A program made the position numbers and the translations under genes. The notes beneath the pieces are model-generated. The model saw only the letters and a program-made list of their open reading frames with translations, did not search any database and was not told the origin of the DNA. This document shows, one piece after another, positions 31,644 through 55,770 of a stretch of 64,000 nt of DNA. This DNA is from Gammaproteobacteria bacterium (GTDB lineage: Bacteria; Gemmatimonadota; Gemmatimonadetes; Longimicrobiales; Gaopeijiaceae). The stretch is from positions 62,001 through 126,000 of the forward strand of contig JAPPHB010000080.1 of assembly GCA_028821195.1 (NCBI GenBank). Direction: 5' to 3'. How positions within the stretch are numbered: position 1 is the stretch's first letter; each line of letters starts with the position of its first letter.

Positions 31644-31665
31644 AAGTCTGCCATTTTGTCAGGTC
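31644..31665. repeat. Palindromic box, copy 1, upstream of dnaK
   Basis: The core CTGCCATTTTGTCAG (31648-31662) is an inverted repeat of CTGnCA around TTT. The whole 22-base unit recurs exactly 31 bases downstream, about three helical turns away, which suits cooperative binding on one face of the DNA. The dnaK start is about 120 bases further on. The binding protein is unknown to me. Confidence 0.8.
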
Positions 31666-31674
31666 CTGGCGGAA

Positions 31675-31696
31675 AAGTCTGCCATTTTGTCAGGTC
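31675..31696. repeat. Palindromic box, copy 2, upstream of dnaK
   Basis: An exact second copy of the 22-base unit, with core CTGCCATTTTGTCAG at 31679-31693. It lies 87 bases upstream of the dnaK ATG, in the range of an operator overlapping or just upstream of the promoter. A related core occurs at 44672-44690. Confidence 0.8.
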
Positions 31697-31782
31697 TCCG
31701 GCCCGGTACGGGGGCACGAACGTTGCTCCAGACCCGGCGACACCCCGTAAACCGGGGACTCACAACCATCCAAGGAGCACAG

Positions 31783-33711
<1,929 letters not shown>

Positions 33712-35649: not shown

Positions 35650-36912
35650 TTGACCATCGATCCCACGCGCCTGCGCGTATCCGTCACCGAAGGCGAACGC
35701 TGGCGGCGCGACCTCGCCATAACCGTTCCCGCCGACATCGTCGGGCGCGAGCGAGCGCGCGTAATGGGCAGCGTTTCGGGCCGGGCACGCATGCCCGGCT
35801 TCCGCAAGGGCAGGATTCCGGCGAGGGTGCTCGAGCAGCGCTACGGAGCCGCCGTCGAGCAGGAAACGCTGGAGACGCTCCTGAACGAGGCGACCCGGGC
35901 GGCCATCCGGAGCGAGCAGCTGCGGCCCATCAGCGATCCCGAAGTGGGCGCGGTGCGGAGCGAACCGGGCGAGGATCTCTTCTTCGAGATCTCGTTCGAT
36001 GTCGAGCCCCGGATCGAGATCGAGCGCAGCGGCGGGTTCGTGGTGGAGAGGCCGGCGGTGGAGGTCGGTGACGCGGAAGTCGACGCGGTCCTGCTACGCC
36101 TGCGCCAGCAGAACGGCGCCTGGCGTCCGCTGGAGGGCGGGTTCCCGGACGCGGGCAACGCGGTCGGGGTGAACATCCTGCAACTGGACCGCGAGGACGC
36201 CGAAGCGAGGGACTACGAGTTCATTCTGGGCGAGGGCGACGCGATTCCGGATGTGGAGCGCGCAATCGAGCAACTGGAAGTGGGAACGGAGGGAGACTTC
36301 GTGGTCCGGTTCCCCGACGACTTTCCCAACGAGGAGCGGCGGGGCGAGGAAGAGCACCTGCGCATCCGGCTCGTCAGCCGAAAGGTTCTCGACCTTCCGG
36401 AACTGGACGACGACTTCGCGGCCAGCCTTGACTTCACAAGCCTCGACGATCTCCAGGACAAGGTCCGGGCGGACCTGGAGCAGAACGCCGCAGGCCAGGC
36501 GGAACAGGTGGTCCGGGCACGCCTCATGGAGTTTGTCCTGGAGGCGAACGCCTTCGACGCGCCCGGCTCCATGGTCGACCGGTACCTGGAGGCGGTGGCC
36601 GGCGAAGGACCCGAGGACACGCCGCCCGAGAAGGTGGAGGAGATGAAGGCCGCCATCCGTCCGCGCGCGGAGAGGGCGGTTCGCACCATGCTGGCGGTGG
36701 AGAGCCTGGCCCGGGCCAACGACCTGGTCGCCAGCCCGCTCGAGGTGTCGGAGCGGGTCGACGAGATCGCGCGCAGGAACGCCGTGCAGCCGGAGACGGT
36801 GGAGGCCCAGCTGCGCCGGAACGGGCGCATGGAGTCGCTGGAGCGAGAGATCACCGAAGGGAAGGTGTTCGAATTCCTGAAGCAGCAGTCCGAGATCATC
36901 CAGGCCGGCTGA
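35650..36912 (+). CDS. tig: Trigger factor (ribosome-bound chaperone / prolyl isomerase)
   Basis: A 420-residue three-domain protein. The N-terminal ribosome-binding domain carries the signature MPGFRKGRIPARVLEQRYG (about 48-66). An FKBP-like PPIase region (NAVGVNILQLDRED to EEHLRIRLVSRKVLDLPELDDDFA) and a C-terminal helical arm complete it. The start appears to be TTG at 35650 with no strong ribosome site. A 6-codon ORF (ATG 35633) ends in TGA overlapping that TTG. clpP follows after 27 bases, giving the widespread tig-clpP-clpX order. Confidence 0.92.
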   Translation: MTIDPTRLRVSVTEGERWRRDLAITVPADIVGRERARVMGSVSGRARMPGFRKGRIPARVLEQRYGAAVEQETLETLLNEATRAAIRSEQLRPISDPEVGAVRSEPGEDLFFEISFDVEPRIEIERSGGFVVERPAVEVGDAEVDAVLLRLRQQNGAWRPLEGGFPDAGNAVGVNILQLDREDAEARDYEFILGEGDAIPDVERAIEQLEVGTEGDFVVRFPDDFPNEERRGEEEHLRIRLVSRKVLDLPELDDDFAASLDFTSLDDLQDKVRADLEQNAAGQAEQVVRARLMEFVLEANAFDAPGSMVDRYLEAVAGEGPEDTPPEKVEEMKAAIRPRAERAVRTMLAVESLARANDLVASPLEVSERVDEIARRNAVQPETVEAQLRRNGRMESLEREITEGKVFEFLKQQSEIIQAG

Positions 36913-36939: not shown

Positions 36940-37560
36940 ATGCCTATTTTTCCTCCGTACGTCATCGAGCGGACGAGCCGCGGAGAACGAAGCTACGACA
37001 TCTTCAGCCGCCTGCTGATGGACCGGATCGTCTTCCTGGGCTCACATATCGACGACAATGTGGCCAATGTCATTCTGGCTCAGCTGCTCTTTCTGGACGC
37101 GGAGGATCCCGAGCGGGACATCTATCTTTACATCAATTCACCCGGCGGGAGCGTCTATGCCGGACTCGCCATTTTCGACACCATGCAGCACCTGCGGGCA
37201 CCGGTCTCCACCTACTGCGTGGGCATGGCGGCTTCGATGGCCGCGATCCTGGTGGCCGCGGGAGCGCCCGGCAAGCGCAGCGCCCTGCCCAACTCGCGCA
37301 TCATGATCCACCAGCCCTCCACGGGGGCGCAGGGCACCGCGTCAGACATCGAGATCGCCGCCCGCGAGGTGCTCGACATTCGTGAGCGGCTCAACGGCAT
37401 CCTCGCCGACTGCACCGGGCAGCCGATGGACAAGATCGCGCAGGACGTGGACCGCGACCGCTTCATGAGCCCCGACGAGGCGCGCGAATACGGCCTGATC
37501 GACCGGGTGCTGGTGGGCCGGGAAGAAGACGCCGCCAGGGACGTGCGTCTTGAGGAATAG
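36940..37560 (+). CDS. clpP: ATP-dependent Clp protease proteolytic subunit
   Basis: A 206-residue serine peptidase forming the ClpXP core. The family start [22 protein letters not shown] is intact. The catalytic Ser is in [15 protein letters not shown], which differs slightly from the common GQAASMGA. The His is in RIMIHQPS and the Asp lies in the [12 protein letters not shown] region. Oligomerisation motif [12 protein letters not shown] is present. It is followed by clpX after about 100 bases. Confidence 0.97.
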
Positions 37561-37663: not shown

Positions 37664-38917
37664 GTGCCCACGACCAGCGACAAGTTCCCCCGCTGCAGCT
37701 TCTGCGGAAAGACCAAGGACTCCGTCAAGAAGTTCATCTCCGGGCCTCAGGTCTACATCTGCAACGAGTGCATCTCGCTCTGTAACGAGATTCTCGCGGA
37801 AGAGGAGGAGCGCGAGGCGGTGTCCGTGGTGGTGCCCACCATGGTACCCGCGGAGGTCAAGGCAGCCCTCGACCAGTACGTCATCGGGCAGGAGGAGGCC
37901 AAGAGGGCACTCGCCGTCGCCGTCTACAACCACTACAAGCGCGTCAACCACCAGGGGCAGATCGACGACGTCGAGATCGACAAGGCGAACATCCTCCTGG
38001 TCGGGCCCACGGGCGTGGGCAAGACGCTGCTGGCGCAGACGCTCGCGCGCATCCTCAAGGTGCCCTTCACCATCGCCGACGCCACCACGCTGACCGAGGC
38101 GGGCTATGTGGGCGAGGACGTCGAGAACATCCTGGTGCGCCTGCTTCAGGCCAGCGACTTCAACATCACGGCCTGCGAGCGCGGGATCGTCTACGTCGAC
38201 GAACTGGACAAGATCGCGCGCAAGTCGGAGAACCCGTCGATCACCCGGGACGTCTCGGGCGAGGGTGTGCAGCAGGCGCTGCTGAAGATCCTCGAAGGCA
38301 CCGTTGCCAGCGTGCCCCCCCAGGGCGGACGCAAGCATCCCCAGCAGGAGTACCTGCAGGTCGATACCCGCAACATCCTGTTCATCTGCGGCGGCGCCTT
38401 CGACGGGCTGGAGGAAATCGTCGAGCAGCGCATCGGCCAGCGGCGCATCGGCTTCGGCAAGAGCTCCCCGGAAGGCACCGGCGACTACCGCAACCGCGAC
38501 GATCTGGTCAGGCTGGTCGAGCCCGAGGATCTGCAGCGCTACGGGCTCATCCCCGAGCTGGTGGGGCGGCTGCCGGTCTCGGTAGGCCTCTCGGAACTCG
38601 ACGAGGACGACCTGGTGCGCATCCTCGAGGAGCCCAGGAACGCCCTGGTCAAGCAGTACCGAAAGATGTTCGAGCTGGAGGGCGTGGGGATCACCTTCGA
38701 TCGCCAGGCACTGCGCGAAGTGGCGAATAAGGCTGCCGACCGGGGCACGGGAGCGCGAGGGCTGAGGGCGGTGCTCGAGGAAGTGATGCAGGACGTGATG
38801 TTCGAGGTGCCGTCGCGGCACGACGTGCGCGAGATTGTGATCACAGTCGAATCGGTCATCTCGGGGACCCCTCCCCTGCTGGTGCTCGAAGGGGAGCGGC
38901 AGAAGAAGGAGGCCTGA
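37664..38917 (+). CDS. clpX: Clp protease ATP-binding subunit ClpX
   Basis: The 417-residue unfoldase that feeds ClpP. The start is GTG at 37664. The N-terminal zinc-binding domain has CSFCGK and CNECISLC. The AAA+ core shows Walker [29 protein letters not shown] for Walker B, and the arginine-finger region [17 protein letters not shown]. The tripeptide loop that contacts ClpP is IGFG (RRIGFGKSS). engB lies 20 bases downstream; a lon gene, common at this position, is missing. Confidence 0.97.
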
Positions 38918-40215: not shown

Positions 40216-41987
<1,772 letters not shown>

Positions 41988-41991
<4 letters not shown>

Positions 41992-42521
41992 GGGGCAGCG
42001 GAGGTGCGTGGGGCGTGCGAGACGGAGGTGCCGCGCGAGAGCTCGACGGCGTGCTCGAGAACGGGATCGAGGACATCGAGCCCGTCGCGCACGCCGCCGG
42101 TGCTGCCGGGGAAGTTGACGATCACGGTCCCCCCGCGGAACCCGGCCACGCCCCGCGACAGGTTCGAGTAGGGGGTCTTGAGCGCGCCCCGCGCCCGGAG
42201 AGCCTCGGCGAGGCCCGGAGCCTCCCCGTCGAGCACCGCCAGGGTGGCCTCGGGGGTGACATCGCGGGCTGTGAAGCCGGTTCCCCCGGTGGTAAGGATG
42301 ACGTGCGCGTCCAGGCGGTCGGACCAGTCGAGGAGCACCGGCACGATGGCGGCGGTCTCGTCCGGGACGACCGTGCGCGCGACCACCTCGTACCCGCGCG
42401 CCCGGCACCACGACTCGATGGCGTCCCCGCTGGTGTCGGCGCGCTCACCCCGGACACCGAGGTCGCTGGCCGTCAGGATGGCCACGGTCAGGGGGCGGGG
42501 GGTTGTCGGTTCGCGGGTCAC
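41988..42521 (-). CDS. Molybdenum cofactor biosynthesis protein MoaB/MogA
   Basis: A 177-residue MoCF-fold protein that adenylates molybdopterin or inserts molybdate. The start is GTG at 42521 with GGAGG 9 bases upstream; the track ORF starts 26 codons too early. Motifs are VAILTASDLGVRGERADTSG, ILTTGGTGFTARDVTPEAT and VIVNFPGSTGGVRDGLDVL. It lies 19 bases after gcvT and overlaps the activator gene. No other molybdenum genes are in the window, so MoaB and MogA are not separated. Confidence 0.87.
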
Positions 42522-42540: not shown

Positions 42541-43650
42541 TCAGCGCCGGATCGAGCCGTGGCGGTAGAAGGGGGGGCGCGCCACCACGGCGGGGACATC
42601 CGCGCGGCGGATGCGCACGGCCACCTGCGTGCCGGGGGCGGCGAGGGGGGTTGGGAGGTACCCCATCGCGATCCCCTCCCCCAGCGACGGGCTCACCGTG
42701 CCGCTGGTGAGGGTTCCGGCGACCTCGCCCTCCGCGACGATCCCGTAGCCGGGCCGCGGGAAGCCCCGTTCCAGCAGACGCAGGCCGACGAGGCGGCGCG
42801 GGACTCCTTCGGCCTTGTGGCGCACCAGCGCGTCCCGCCCCGAAAAGTCGCCCTTCCCCGGCTTCACCACCCAGCCCAGCCCCGACTCGAGCGCGCTGTG
42901 TTCCTCGTCCAGATCGTTGCCGTAGAGTGCGTAGCCCATCTCGAGCCGGAGCGAATCCCGGGCGCCCAGCCCCGTGGGTTCCAGACCGTGCTCGGCCCCG
43001 GCTTCGAGCAGCGCGCTCCAGACCGCCGGCGCGTCGCCGGCCTCCAGGTACAGCTCGAAGCCATCCTCTCCGGTATACCCGGTGCGCGCCACCATCGCCG
43101 GCACGCCGGCGACTTCGCCGGTGGTGAAGCGGTAGTAGCCTACGGCGGACAGGTCCGCTCCGGTGAGCCGGACGAGGATGCCCGCGGCCGAAGGCCCCTG
43201 CAGCGCCAGCAGCGCGGTGCGGTCGGAAACGTCGCGCACCTCGCAGTCGAAGCCGGACGCGTGCCGCGTGACCCACGCCCAGTCCTTGTCGCGGTTGGCC
43301 GCGTTGACCACCAGCAGGTAGCGGTCCTCGAAGCGATAGACGAGCAGGTCGTCCAGCACGCATCCCTTCTCGTCACAGAAAGCGGAGTATTGAGCCTGCC
43401 CCACCTCCAAGCGGCCCGCGTCGTTGGTGGTAAGCCACTGCACCAGGTCGAGTGCCTCGGCGCCACGCACCTCGAATTCGCCCATGTGCGAGACATCGAA
43501 GAGACCCGCGCGCTCGCGCACCGCGTTGTGCTCCGCGCGGATGCCCCGGCGATACTGGACCGGCATCTCGTATCCCGCGAAGGGCACCATCCTGCCGCCG
43601 GCCCGAAGGTGTTCCTCGTGGAGCGGCGTGCGGGCGAGTCCCGCGCTCAT
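42541..43650 (-). CDS. gcvT: Glycine cleavage system T protein (aminomethyltransferase)
   Basis: Transfers the aminomethyl carbon from lipoyl-GcvH to tetrahydrofolate. The start [14 protein letters not shown] has GGAAGAGGGA upstream; the track start 10 codons earlier is GTG. The 369-residue protein shows [25 protein letters not shown] with the folate Asp region, [27 protein letters not shown] and a C-terminal [16 protein letters not shown] barrel. gcvH and gcvP are not in the window. It follows argF by 36 bases. Confidence 0.95.
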
Positions 43651-43686
43651 GGAGTCCCTCTTCCGGTCATTGGCTGCCACCTCCGG

Positions 43687-44616
43687 TCATTCATCATTGC
43701 AATCCTCTCCCAGCAGTGCGATCAAGAGCGCCTTCTGGGTGTGCAATCGGTTCTCCGCCTCCCGGAACACGCGTGAACGGGGGCCTTCCAGGACCGCCTC
43801 GGTGACCTCCTCGCCGCGGTGGGCGGGGAGGCAATGCAGGAAGATCGCCCTTTCGGAGGCCCGCGCCATCAGCGCGCGATCCACGGTATAGCCCGCAAAG
43901 GCGTCCCGGCGTGCATCCGCCTCGCCCTCCTGTCCCATCGAAGCCCACACGTCGGTGGTGACCACATCGGCGCCCTCGGCGGCCTCGCGCGGCGATCGGG
44001 TGAAGTGTACGGGGGCGGCCGTGCGGGCGCGCGCCACGATCCCGGGGTCCGGGTCGAAGCCCCGGGGGCACGCCAGCGCCACCTCGAACCCAAGAATGGA
44101 CGCGGCGTTAAGCCAGGAGTTGGCCATGTTGTTTCCGTCTCCGATCCAGGCGACCCGAATTCCGTCGAACCCCGGTCCGAACTCCTCCTGAATGGTCATC
44201 AGATCGGCGAGCAGCTGACACGGGTGCAGGAGGTCGGTGAGGCCGTTGATGACCGGAATCGGCGCCCAGCGGGCGAGCTGCTCGACCTCCTCCTGGTCGA
44301 ACGTCCGGATCATGATGCCGTCCACGTAGCGCCCCAGGACGCGCGCGGTGTCGGCGAGCGGTTCGTCGCGTCCGATCTGCGTGTCCACCGCGGAGAGGAA
44401 GAGCGCCTGCCCGCCCAACTGGACCATGCCCACCTCGAACGCCACCCGGGTGCGGGTGGAATTCTTGCGGAAAACCATCGCCAGCGACTTGCCCCGAAGC
44501 GGCACGCGCGGACCCTCTCCGGCCTTCAGGCGCCGAGCGTGCTCCAGCAACGACGCCAGTTCGTCGCGGGTGAAATCCCGGAGGGACAGAAAGTCCTTCT
44601 TGCGGGCTGGGGTCAT
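43687..44616 (-). CDS. argF: Ornithine carbamoyltransferase
   Basis: Makes citrulline from ornithine and carbamoyl phosphate in arginine synthesis. The start [12 protein letters not shown] gives 309 residues; the track ORF is 28 codons longer and runs through the palindromic box. Carbamoyl-phosphate motifs are STRTR (53-57) and HPCQ. Ornithine-side motifs are [10 protein letters not shown] and [10 protein letters not shown], and the catalytic HCLPAHRG is intact. A 19-base palindrome lies 56 bases upstream, so this gene probably starts a transcript separate from hslVU. Confidence 0.95.
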
Positions 44617-44671: not shown

Positions 44672-44690
44672 GTCTGCCATTTTGGCAGAC
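44672..44690. repeat. Palindromic box upstream of argF, related to the dnaK boxes
   Basis: GTCTGCCATTTTGGCAGAC is a perfect inverted repeat with 8-base arms and a TTT centre. Its core differs by one base from the two copies upstream of dnaK. It lies between the hslU stop (44789) and the argF start (44616), 56 bases before the latter. It could be an operator for argF-gcvT-moaB, or a signal at the end of the hslVU transcript. Confidence 0.75.
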
Positions 44691-55147: not shown

Positions 55148-55770
55148 GCCGGGTTGCCCACGGTTGGGCGGGGCTGGTAGGAGACACGGAGCACAAAGGC
55201 GCTGAGAACCCATTCCGCACCGGCCGGCAGTCGTTCCGCCACCTGCTCGGTACCGACCAGGCTGACGGAAGTCAGGAAGGGAGAGGCCTCCAGCCGGTTC
55301 ATGAAGCGCGTCAGGGCAAAGGTGTTGGCGGTTCGTCCCTCGATCTCCACCTGGACCTTGTCCCCGCCGCCCGCTTGCGCGATACGCGTCAACCAGGTGA
55401 ACTCCGGCATTGCAGCCGCCACTTCATCGAGGATGTGGGACCAGACGTACCGCCCCTGGTCGAGCTCCCGGATAACCTGCACTCGCGCGGCCACGGAATC
55501 GCGTCCGGCACGCAATTGGTCCGCAGAGGAGATCAGACCGGCCAGTGCGGTCGAGTCGCCCATGGCTCGAGTGACTCGATCCTCCAGAACTCGCTGACGA
55601 TCGCGGGCACCCGGGTAAAGCAACGCCAGTACCAGGAGGGTGGCCAGCCCGGGAACGTTCGCCGCCAGGTGCCACGGCGACGCGGCTTTCGGAGGCGACG
55701 CACCCGCTGACGATCGCCGCCTGCGCGTGGCGTGGGCCGACCCCCCGGGCATCAGGTTGATTTCGATCAC
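55144..55770 (-). CDS. pilN: Type IV pilus inner-membrane protein PilN
   Basis: The 208-residue protein begins with the conserved IEINLMPGG tail that inserts into PilM. A basic stretch, one membrane helix (VPGLATLLVLALLYPG), a coiled coil, and a PilN fold (MPEFTWLTRIAQAGG, TANTFALTRFMNRLEASPFL) follow. Its ATG overlaps the pilM stop. The cytoplasmic linker between the PilM-binding motif and the helix is long and Arg/Ser/Ala-rich. Confidence 0.9.
   Translation of the reverse strand: MIEINLMPGGSAHATRRRRSSAGASPPKAASPWHLAANVPGLATLLVLALLYPGARDRQRVLEDRVTRAMGDSTALAGLISSADQLRAGRDSVAARVQVIRELDQGRYVWSHILDEVAAAMPEFTWLTRIAQAGGGDKVQVEIEGRTANTFALTRFMNRLEASPFLTSVSLVGTEQVAERLPAGAEWVLSAFVLRVSYQPRPTVGNPA

Follow-up and report, generated by a model that had tools for sequence, protein, structure and literature searches.

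The stretch of DNA analysed here (64,000 nucleotides; "the window") contains a dnaK gene preceded by two copies of a short palindromic box and a predicted sigma-54 promoter, and followed on the same strand by genes of a serine protease, a trigger factor-like protein, ClpP and ClpX, the last three being syntenic ORFs named from sequence. On the opposite strand lie four closely spaced genes, argF-gcvT-moaB-like-bEBP, which are presumed to form one operon and which end in a candidate regulator, a sigma-54 enhancer-binding protein (bEBP). The features are listed below.

31648..31662, + strand: box 1 (distal), CTGCCATTTTGTCAG, within unit 31644-31665; weight-matrix score 26.5
31679..31693, + strand: box 2 (proximal), CTGCCATTTTGTCAG, within unit 31675-31696; 31 bp (three helical turns) from box 1
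31712..31727, + strand: predicted sigma-54 -24/-12 promoter of dnaK, GGGCACG-AACG-TTGCT (GGGCACGAACGTTGCT); score 14.9
31783..33711, + strand: dnaK (642 aa); NCBIfam NF001413, 1029 bits
33748..35418, + strand: HtrA/DegP-like serine protease (trypsin and PDZ domains by Pfam), a conserved dnaK neighbour
35650..36912, + strand: tig, trigger-factor-like
36940..37560, + strand: clpP
37664..38917, + strand: clpX
40216..41991, - strand: candidate regulator, bEBP of 591 aa (PF00158, AAA_lid_14, HTH_8)
41988..42521, - strand: molybdopterin-binding-domain protein (MoaB-like; PF00994), with a 4-bp overlap with the bEBP start; presumed same operon
42541..43680, - strand: gcvT-like gene of the presumed operon, named from sequence
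43687..44616, - strand: argF (ornithine carbamoyltransferase; PF00185 and PF02729), first gene of the presumed operon
44674..44688, - strand: box 3, CTGCCATTTTGGCAG, 58 bp upstream of argF; 29.5 bits, the strongest of the window; putative autoregulatory site

The sequence AAGTCTGCCATTTTGTCAGGTC is present twice upstream of dnaK, and the two 22-nt units are identical and 31 bp apart, as the first-pass annotation had described. They begin 139 bp and end 87 bp before the dnaK ATG at 31783 (87-140 bases in that annotation), and the pair can also be read as a 31-nt direct repeat with 87% identity over 31 nt. The core, CTGCCA-TTT-TGTCAG, had been called an inverted repeat with a TTT centre; the TTT-centred dyad is there, but the palindrome is imperfect, with one mismatch of six (C4 vs T12). 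In the window alone, a loose pattern with one mismatch allowed gives 3 matches against 1.87 expected, which is not significant; the genome-wide count is, with exact CTGNCANNNTGNCAG found 21 times against 1 for the reversed control. With a matrix built from exact boxes, only three matches of at least 12 bits are found in the 64 kb, and each of them exceeds 26 bits.

Relatives were compared with a tighter pattern, CTGMCAWWWTGKCAG, which occurs 9-26 times per genome in 10 of 10 congeners (reversed control 0) and 0-1 time in each of 20 other genomes of the family and order. A chance origin of the boxes was dropped on these genome-wide and congener controls. In a sample of 399 genomes of the phylum, the pattern is enriched solely in genera g1 (the window's genus), g21, g24 and g33, all of one family, and the idea of a regulon confined to one genus was revised once the three further genera, and degenerate boxes across the phylum, appeared. 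Boxes upstream of dnaK, clpB, hsp20 and lon are common to several genera, while g1 has extra targets, including the argR-led arginine operon, argF, hut-type genes and a UvrA-like gene. Some of the g1 boxes, a minority, are found at the tails of genes or within a repeat family, so a box need not be a promoter element. The same boxes are also found in L193 (VYDD01000369.1), a record titled Gammaproteobacteria bacterium SB0675_bin_31, whose DnaK is 99% identical to that of the window and which appears to be a mislabelled Gemmatimonadota.

Tandem boxes are frequent, and 80 distinct neighbouring pairs cluster at spacings of 21, 31, 42 and 52 bp. Their phases relative to 10.5 bp agree (R=0.80, Rayleigh p ~1e-22 for the 80 pairs, among which orthologous pairs are not independent), and spacings in multiples of 10.5 bp fit a cooperating protein on one helical face. 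Of the 79 sites in g1, 28 are changed at only one of positions 4 and 12, and 1 is changed at both. Such uncompensated changes point to the half-sites of a DNA operator bound by a dimeric protein, not to a paired RNA stem, and an RNA hairpin was dropped on this ground. That the boxes, with the consensus CTGCCA-WWW-TGGCAG, serve a proteostasis regulon as operators is almost certain.

In the window's genus, the argR operon (L018:5298-5824; G000 contig C61) comprises argR, a P-loop-like gene and argC-, argD- and argB-like genes, and carries a pair of boxes at a 42-bp spacing, of which the second overlaps the probable start codon. In genera g24 and g33, paired boxes (L177:4951-5007 and L181:4993-5049) precede a Fic-like gene, named from sequence only. 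These boxes place the Fic-like gene in one regulon with dnaK, and an Hsp70 is modified by a eukaryotic Fic enzyme, so a connection with DnaK deserves a test. In G094, a box pair (L176:4972-5028) lies inside a predicted 1162-aa ATPase gene beside a PAPS-reductase-like gene, and this neighbourhood resembles DNA-modification or defence loci. Six further loci (L045, L047, L055, L185, L187 and L188) are mostly non-orthologous and have a repeated flank of ~100-400 bp, several of them at contig ends, which suggests a box-carrying repeat or mobile family.

The heat-shock operator CIRCE (TTAGCACTC-N9-GAGTGCTAA) is absent upstream of dnaK, in agreement with the first-pass annotation, and the window's genome has one perfect CIRCE elsewhere, at groESL. 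HrcA occurs in every one of the 31 genomes searched, and in each of six genomes CIRCE occurs as a single copy, always directly before groES-groEL. An HrcA with changed specificity is therefore disfavoured as the binder of the boxes, since one good CIRCE is retained before groESL in every genome. The proposal that a different dimeric regulator controls dnaK is supported by the boxes at clpB, hsp20 and lon and by their conservation at the dnaK genes of relatives. Where enrichment had been predicted at groES, clpB, hsp20 or lon, it is seen at the last three but not at groES, which keeps CIRCE. The sites respect the promoters of dnaK, clpB, hsp20 and lon, and the boxes are kept at dnaK in relatives, the two points on which the first-pass annotation had staked its proposal.

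The predicted promoter GGGCACGAACGTTGCT, which the first-pass annotation had not mentioned, sits between the boxes and dnaK and has the GG-N10-GC core within TGGCACG-N4-TTGCW. It is the best of four sites that score at least 12 on both strands of the 64 kb, and the chance of such a score per 300 bp is ~0.002; the matrix approximates the published consensus, and background rates were measured on the same loci. The further sites scoring at least 12 have no boxes and lie at 55634(-) TGGTACTGGCGTTGCT, 61560(-) AGGCGCGCCACTTGCA and 30833(-) TGGCCTGGGTCATGCA.

Wherever boxes precede dnaK, hsp20 or lon, each promoter examined also has a sigma-54 element 3' of them, between the boxes and the gene. Examples are TGGCACGTTCGTTGCA (dnaK, G179), TGGCACGCTCCCTGCC (hsp20, the window's genus) and TGGCAAGGATCGTGCA (lon, G078), and a weaker element, AGGCCCGATTCGTGCA with a score of 9.5, belongs to lon in the window's genome. 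At dnaK the element is kept in four genera, and among 12 scored Gemmatimonadota dnaK loci, 9 score at least 14, one scores 12.7 and two are weaker (8.5 and 7.9). Good elements also exist at dnaK loci of Poribacteria, Verrucomicrobia and others, and rpoN (PF04552) is present as one copy in each of the genomes tested (8 of 8). At loci L231 and L248 (Spartobacteria, Verrucomicrobia), the dnaK element is accompanied by a different palindrome (GCGACACAATGTCTC / GAGACACAGTGTCCC), which is possibly another UAS.

No sigma-54 promoter was recognisable at clpB in the boxed genera searched, despite constant boxes, and the same is true of most genus-specific targets (the argR operon, argF, hut-type genes and the UvrA-like gene). 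Overall, a sigma-54 site with a score of 9 or more lies within ~300 bp, on either strand, of only 25 of the 74 box clusters. With a sigma-54 promoter just downstream of the boxes, the likely mechanism shifts from a classical repressor to an enhancer-binding activator, and at dnaK, hsp20 and lon the boxes likely act as sigma-54 enhancers.

The window itself encodes a candidate for such an activator, which the first-pass annotation had passed over, as it had box 3. The bEBP matches PF00158 with 231 bits (1e-68), GESGTGKE and GAFTGA are seen in its translation, and its C-terminus is a Fis-type HTH, LGIAERTLYRKIRRYGLE (HTH_8 at residues 547-588, 50 bits). From N- to C-terminus, it consists of a domain of unknown family, an AAA+ domain with GAFTGA, a conserved linker and the Fis-type HTH. 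The N-terminal domain has no significant Pfam match, and in four orthologues no Response_reg match was obtained even at E=10. A single-sequence model of the N-terminus (pLDDT 72) has alternating strands and helices, and a fold search with this one model gave no significant structural match; a receiver fold was set aside on these results. The protein scores well below the NCBIfam equivalog cut-offs shown, the best being nifA (382 vs 529).

At E<=1e-20, there are 3 sigma-54 activators in G094, 3 in G179 and 6 in the window's genome, and three orthologous bEBP groups, one of them that of the window, are common to all boxed genomes compared. In five genera the window's group lies 8-15 kb from dnaK in convergent orientation, closing the block dnaK-htrA-tig-clpP-clpX-ysxC. 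Given its distance from argF, box 3 is upstream of the presumed operon that ends in the bEBP. Its equivalents are found at argF in G002 and G008, and ~13 kb from the dnaK boxes in G003, G004 and G010. In G001, G083, G094 and G179 a search ahead of the argF/bEBP genes gave no box, so autoregulation would at best hold for some members of the genus. Judged by synteny, the box on its presumed operon and its distribution, the bEBP of the window is the best candidate for the protein that would bind the boxes.

The arrangement at dnaK was also followed beyond the boxed genera: the exact-box matrix was run over 250 bp ahead of the best -24 element of dnaK, and the top site was compared with dinucleotide shuffles, a test devised for this analysis. 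All other Gemmatimonadota dnaK loci in this test (12 of 12) have a degenerate box, each at p<=0.013 and combined ~1e-15 by shuffling, the orthologous sites not being independent. Among loci of other phyla, which were chosen for having a sigma-54 site, a degenerate box at p<=0.017 exists at dnaK of a KSB1, two Poribacteria, a Marinimicrobia and a Lentisphaerae locus, and the six remaining loci have none by the shuffling test. Box and sigma-54 promoter thus occur together at dnaK more widely than the exact motif does. In the KSB1 and Poribacteria genomes with a boxed dnaK, orthologues of the window's bEBP have a similar linker and recognition helix and no N-terminal domain. In the Marinimicrobia genome (G406), such an orthologue, also without the N-terminal domain, is the only strong bEBP match, and the top bEBP match of the Lentisphaerae genome (L256) does not belong to the clade of the window's bEBP.

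Other readings of the boxes were weighed against these data. Since clpB and most genus-specific targets are boxed and have no sigma-54 promoter, a sigma-54-independent regulator is possible: the boxes would bind a dimeric repressor (or activator) of this kind, and the sigma-54 promoters at dnaK, hsp20 and lon would be driven by a bEBP that binds elsewhere. At clpB, argR, argF and the UvrA-like gene the boxes are 40-110 bp from the start codons, and at argR and a beta-propeller gene they overlap them; boxes over start codons or 40-60 bp before them suit repression, being in classical repressor geometry. We consider this reading unlikely, because box and sigma-54 promoter are kept together at dnaK across Gemmatimonadota and other-phyla loci, with one bEBP family, and no gene of a non-bEBP regulator was seen beside boxes in more than one genus. 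If the binder is a bEBP, it might be a member of another common group (the G000_C13 or G000_C74 group) instead of the dnaK-linked one, and presence alone cannot separate the three groups, because G094 and G179 hold one member of each. This is improbable in view of the synteny of the window's group with dnaK, the box upstream of its presumed operon and the Marinimicrobia genome with a dnaK box, whose only strong bEBP match comes from this group.

Two further readings are much weaker. The boxes could belong to a mobile repeat or to an RNA hairpin element instead of being regulatory operators, as several of them lie at gene tails, six loci have the common repeated flank and the exact core could form a 6-bp stem. 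Uncompensated single half-site changes, orthologous promoter positions in several genera, helical phasing and degenerate boxes at dnaK throughout the phylum make this very improbable. ArgR was considered as the protein that binds the boxes of arginine and heat-shock genes alike, since boxes occur at the argR-led operon, where two of them lie at its own start codon, and at argF, and its DNA-binding domain has diverged in the window's genus (PF01316 ~50 bits against 60-87 in other genera in the sample of relatives). However, G094 has 14 boxes, those of dnaK, clpB and hsp20 among them, and no ArgR-family match, G245 is boxed and lacks ArgR, and ArgR has its ordinary form in most other boxed genomes checked. 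ArgR as the general regulator of the boxes is refuted by G094 and G245, and we give this reading hardly any weight.

We therefore prefer to read the boxes as operators of a proteostasis regulon that serve as UAS at dnaK, hsp20 and lon for a bEBP, most likely the window's own, and we put the probability of this reading at roughly 0.6. The sequences show the boxes with their conservation, targets and helical phasing, as well as the sigma-54 consensus, rpoN and the synteny of the bEBP; from these we infer the binding, the activation and the heat induction, and the choice of this bEBP over another as the binder. In the proposed process, bEBP dimers would bind one to four boxes on one helical face and assemble into an AAA+ oligomer, which would use ATP to open the RNA polymerase-sigma-54 complex at the -24/-12 promoter just downstream. 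In part of the window's genus the presumed bEBP operon carries its own box, a putative autoregulatory site, and HrcA/CIRCE still exists, apparently restricted to groESL. For clpB and the genus-specific targets, it may be that the bEBP acts as a repressor or assists a different promoter, or that the box is shared with a second regulator.

Compared with known systems, the closest design is that of NtrC, NorR and PspF, which likewise combine an AAA+ GAFTGA activator carrying a Fis-type HTH with palindromic UAS upstream of a -24/-12 promoter and several phased sites. NorR sites are GTCA-N3-TGAC and have the 3-bp-centre geometry in common with the boxes here. The predicted system differs from these three in its targets, which are core chaperone and protease genes (dnaK, hsp20 and lon), and in an N-terminal domain without a Pfam family. 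HrcA/CIRCE is likewise a heat-shock operator system, but here it is found at groESL only and the dnaK boxes are unlike CIRCE. HspR/HAIR, CtsR and sigma-32 control the same kind of targets (dnaK, clpB, hsp20 and lon type genes), whereas their operator or promoter sequences differ from the boxes, as judged by eye only against the consensus sequences. Sigma-54 promoters have been predicted at GroEL, GroES, IbpA, GrpE, DnaJ and DnaK in Bacteroidota and Planctomycetota (PMC12316311). Those systems belong to other phyla, the main text of that survey does not mention Gemmatimonadota and, as far as the part consulted goes, it assigns no UAS operator or dedicated activator to the chaperone genes; its predictions include GroEL/GroES, whereas groESL here has CIRCE instead. 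The operator, the activator candidate and a Gemmatimonadota system of this kind were not found in the open-licence literature searched, including the sigma-54 surveys PMC12316311 and PMC3162934.

A broader proposal, which we regard as possible though somewhat short of probable, is that a dedicated sigma-54 heat-shock system may be the ancestral control of dnaK in Gemmatimonadota and common to KSB1, Poribacteria and Marinimicrobia. Its bEBP (AAA+, a conserved linker helix, an ERTLYRKI-type HTH and, in some cases, the N-terminal domain) would itself sense protein-folding stress, perhaps via the linker, and would replace sigma-32, HspR or HrcA.

For most uncultured phyla, control of chaperones by sigma-32, HrcA, HspR or CtsR is usually assumed. 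Sigma-54 is usually tied to nitrogen, motility and envelope functions. As this analysis names an operator, a promoter class, a set of targets and one candidate regulator gene, the proposal is directly testable with one purified protein and one promoter, and, if true, it would place sigma-54 at the centre of protein quality control.
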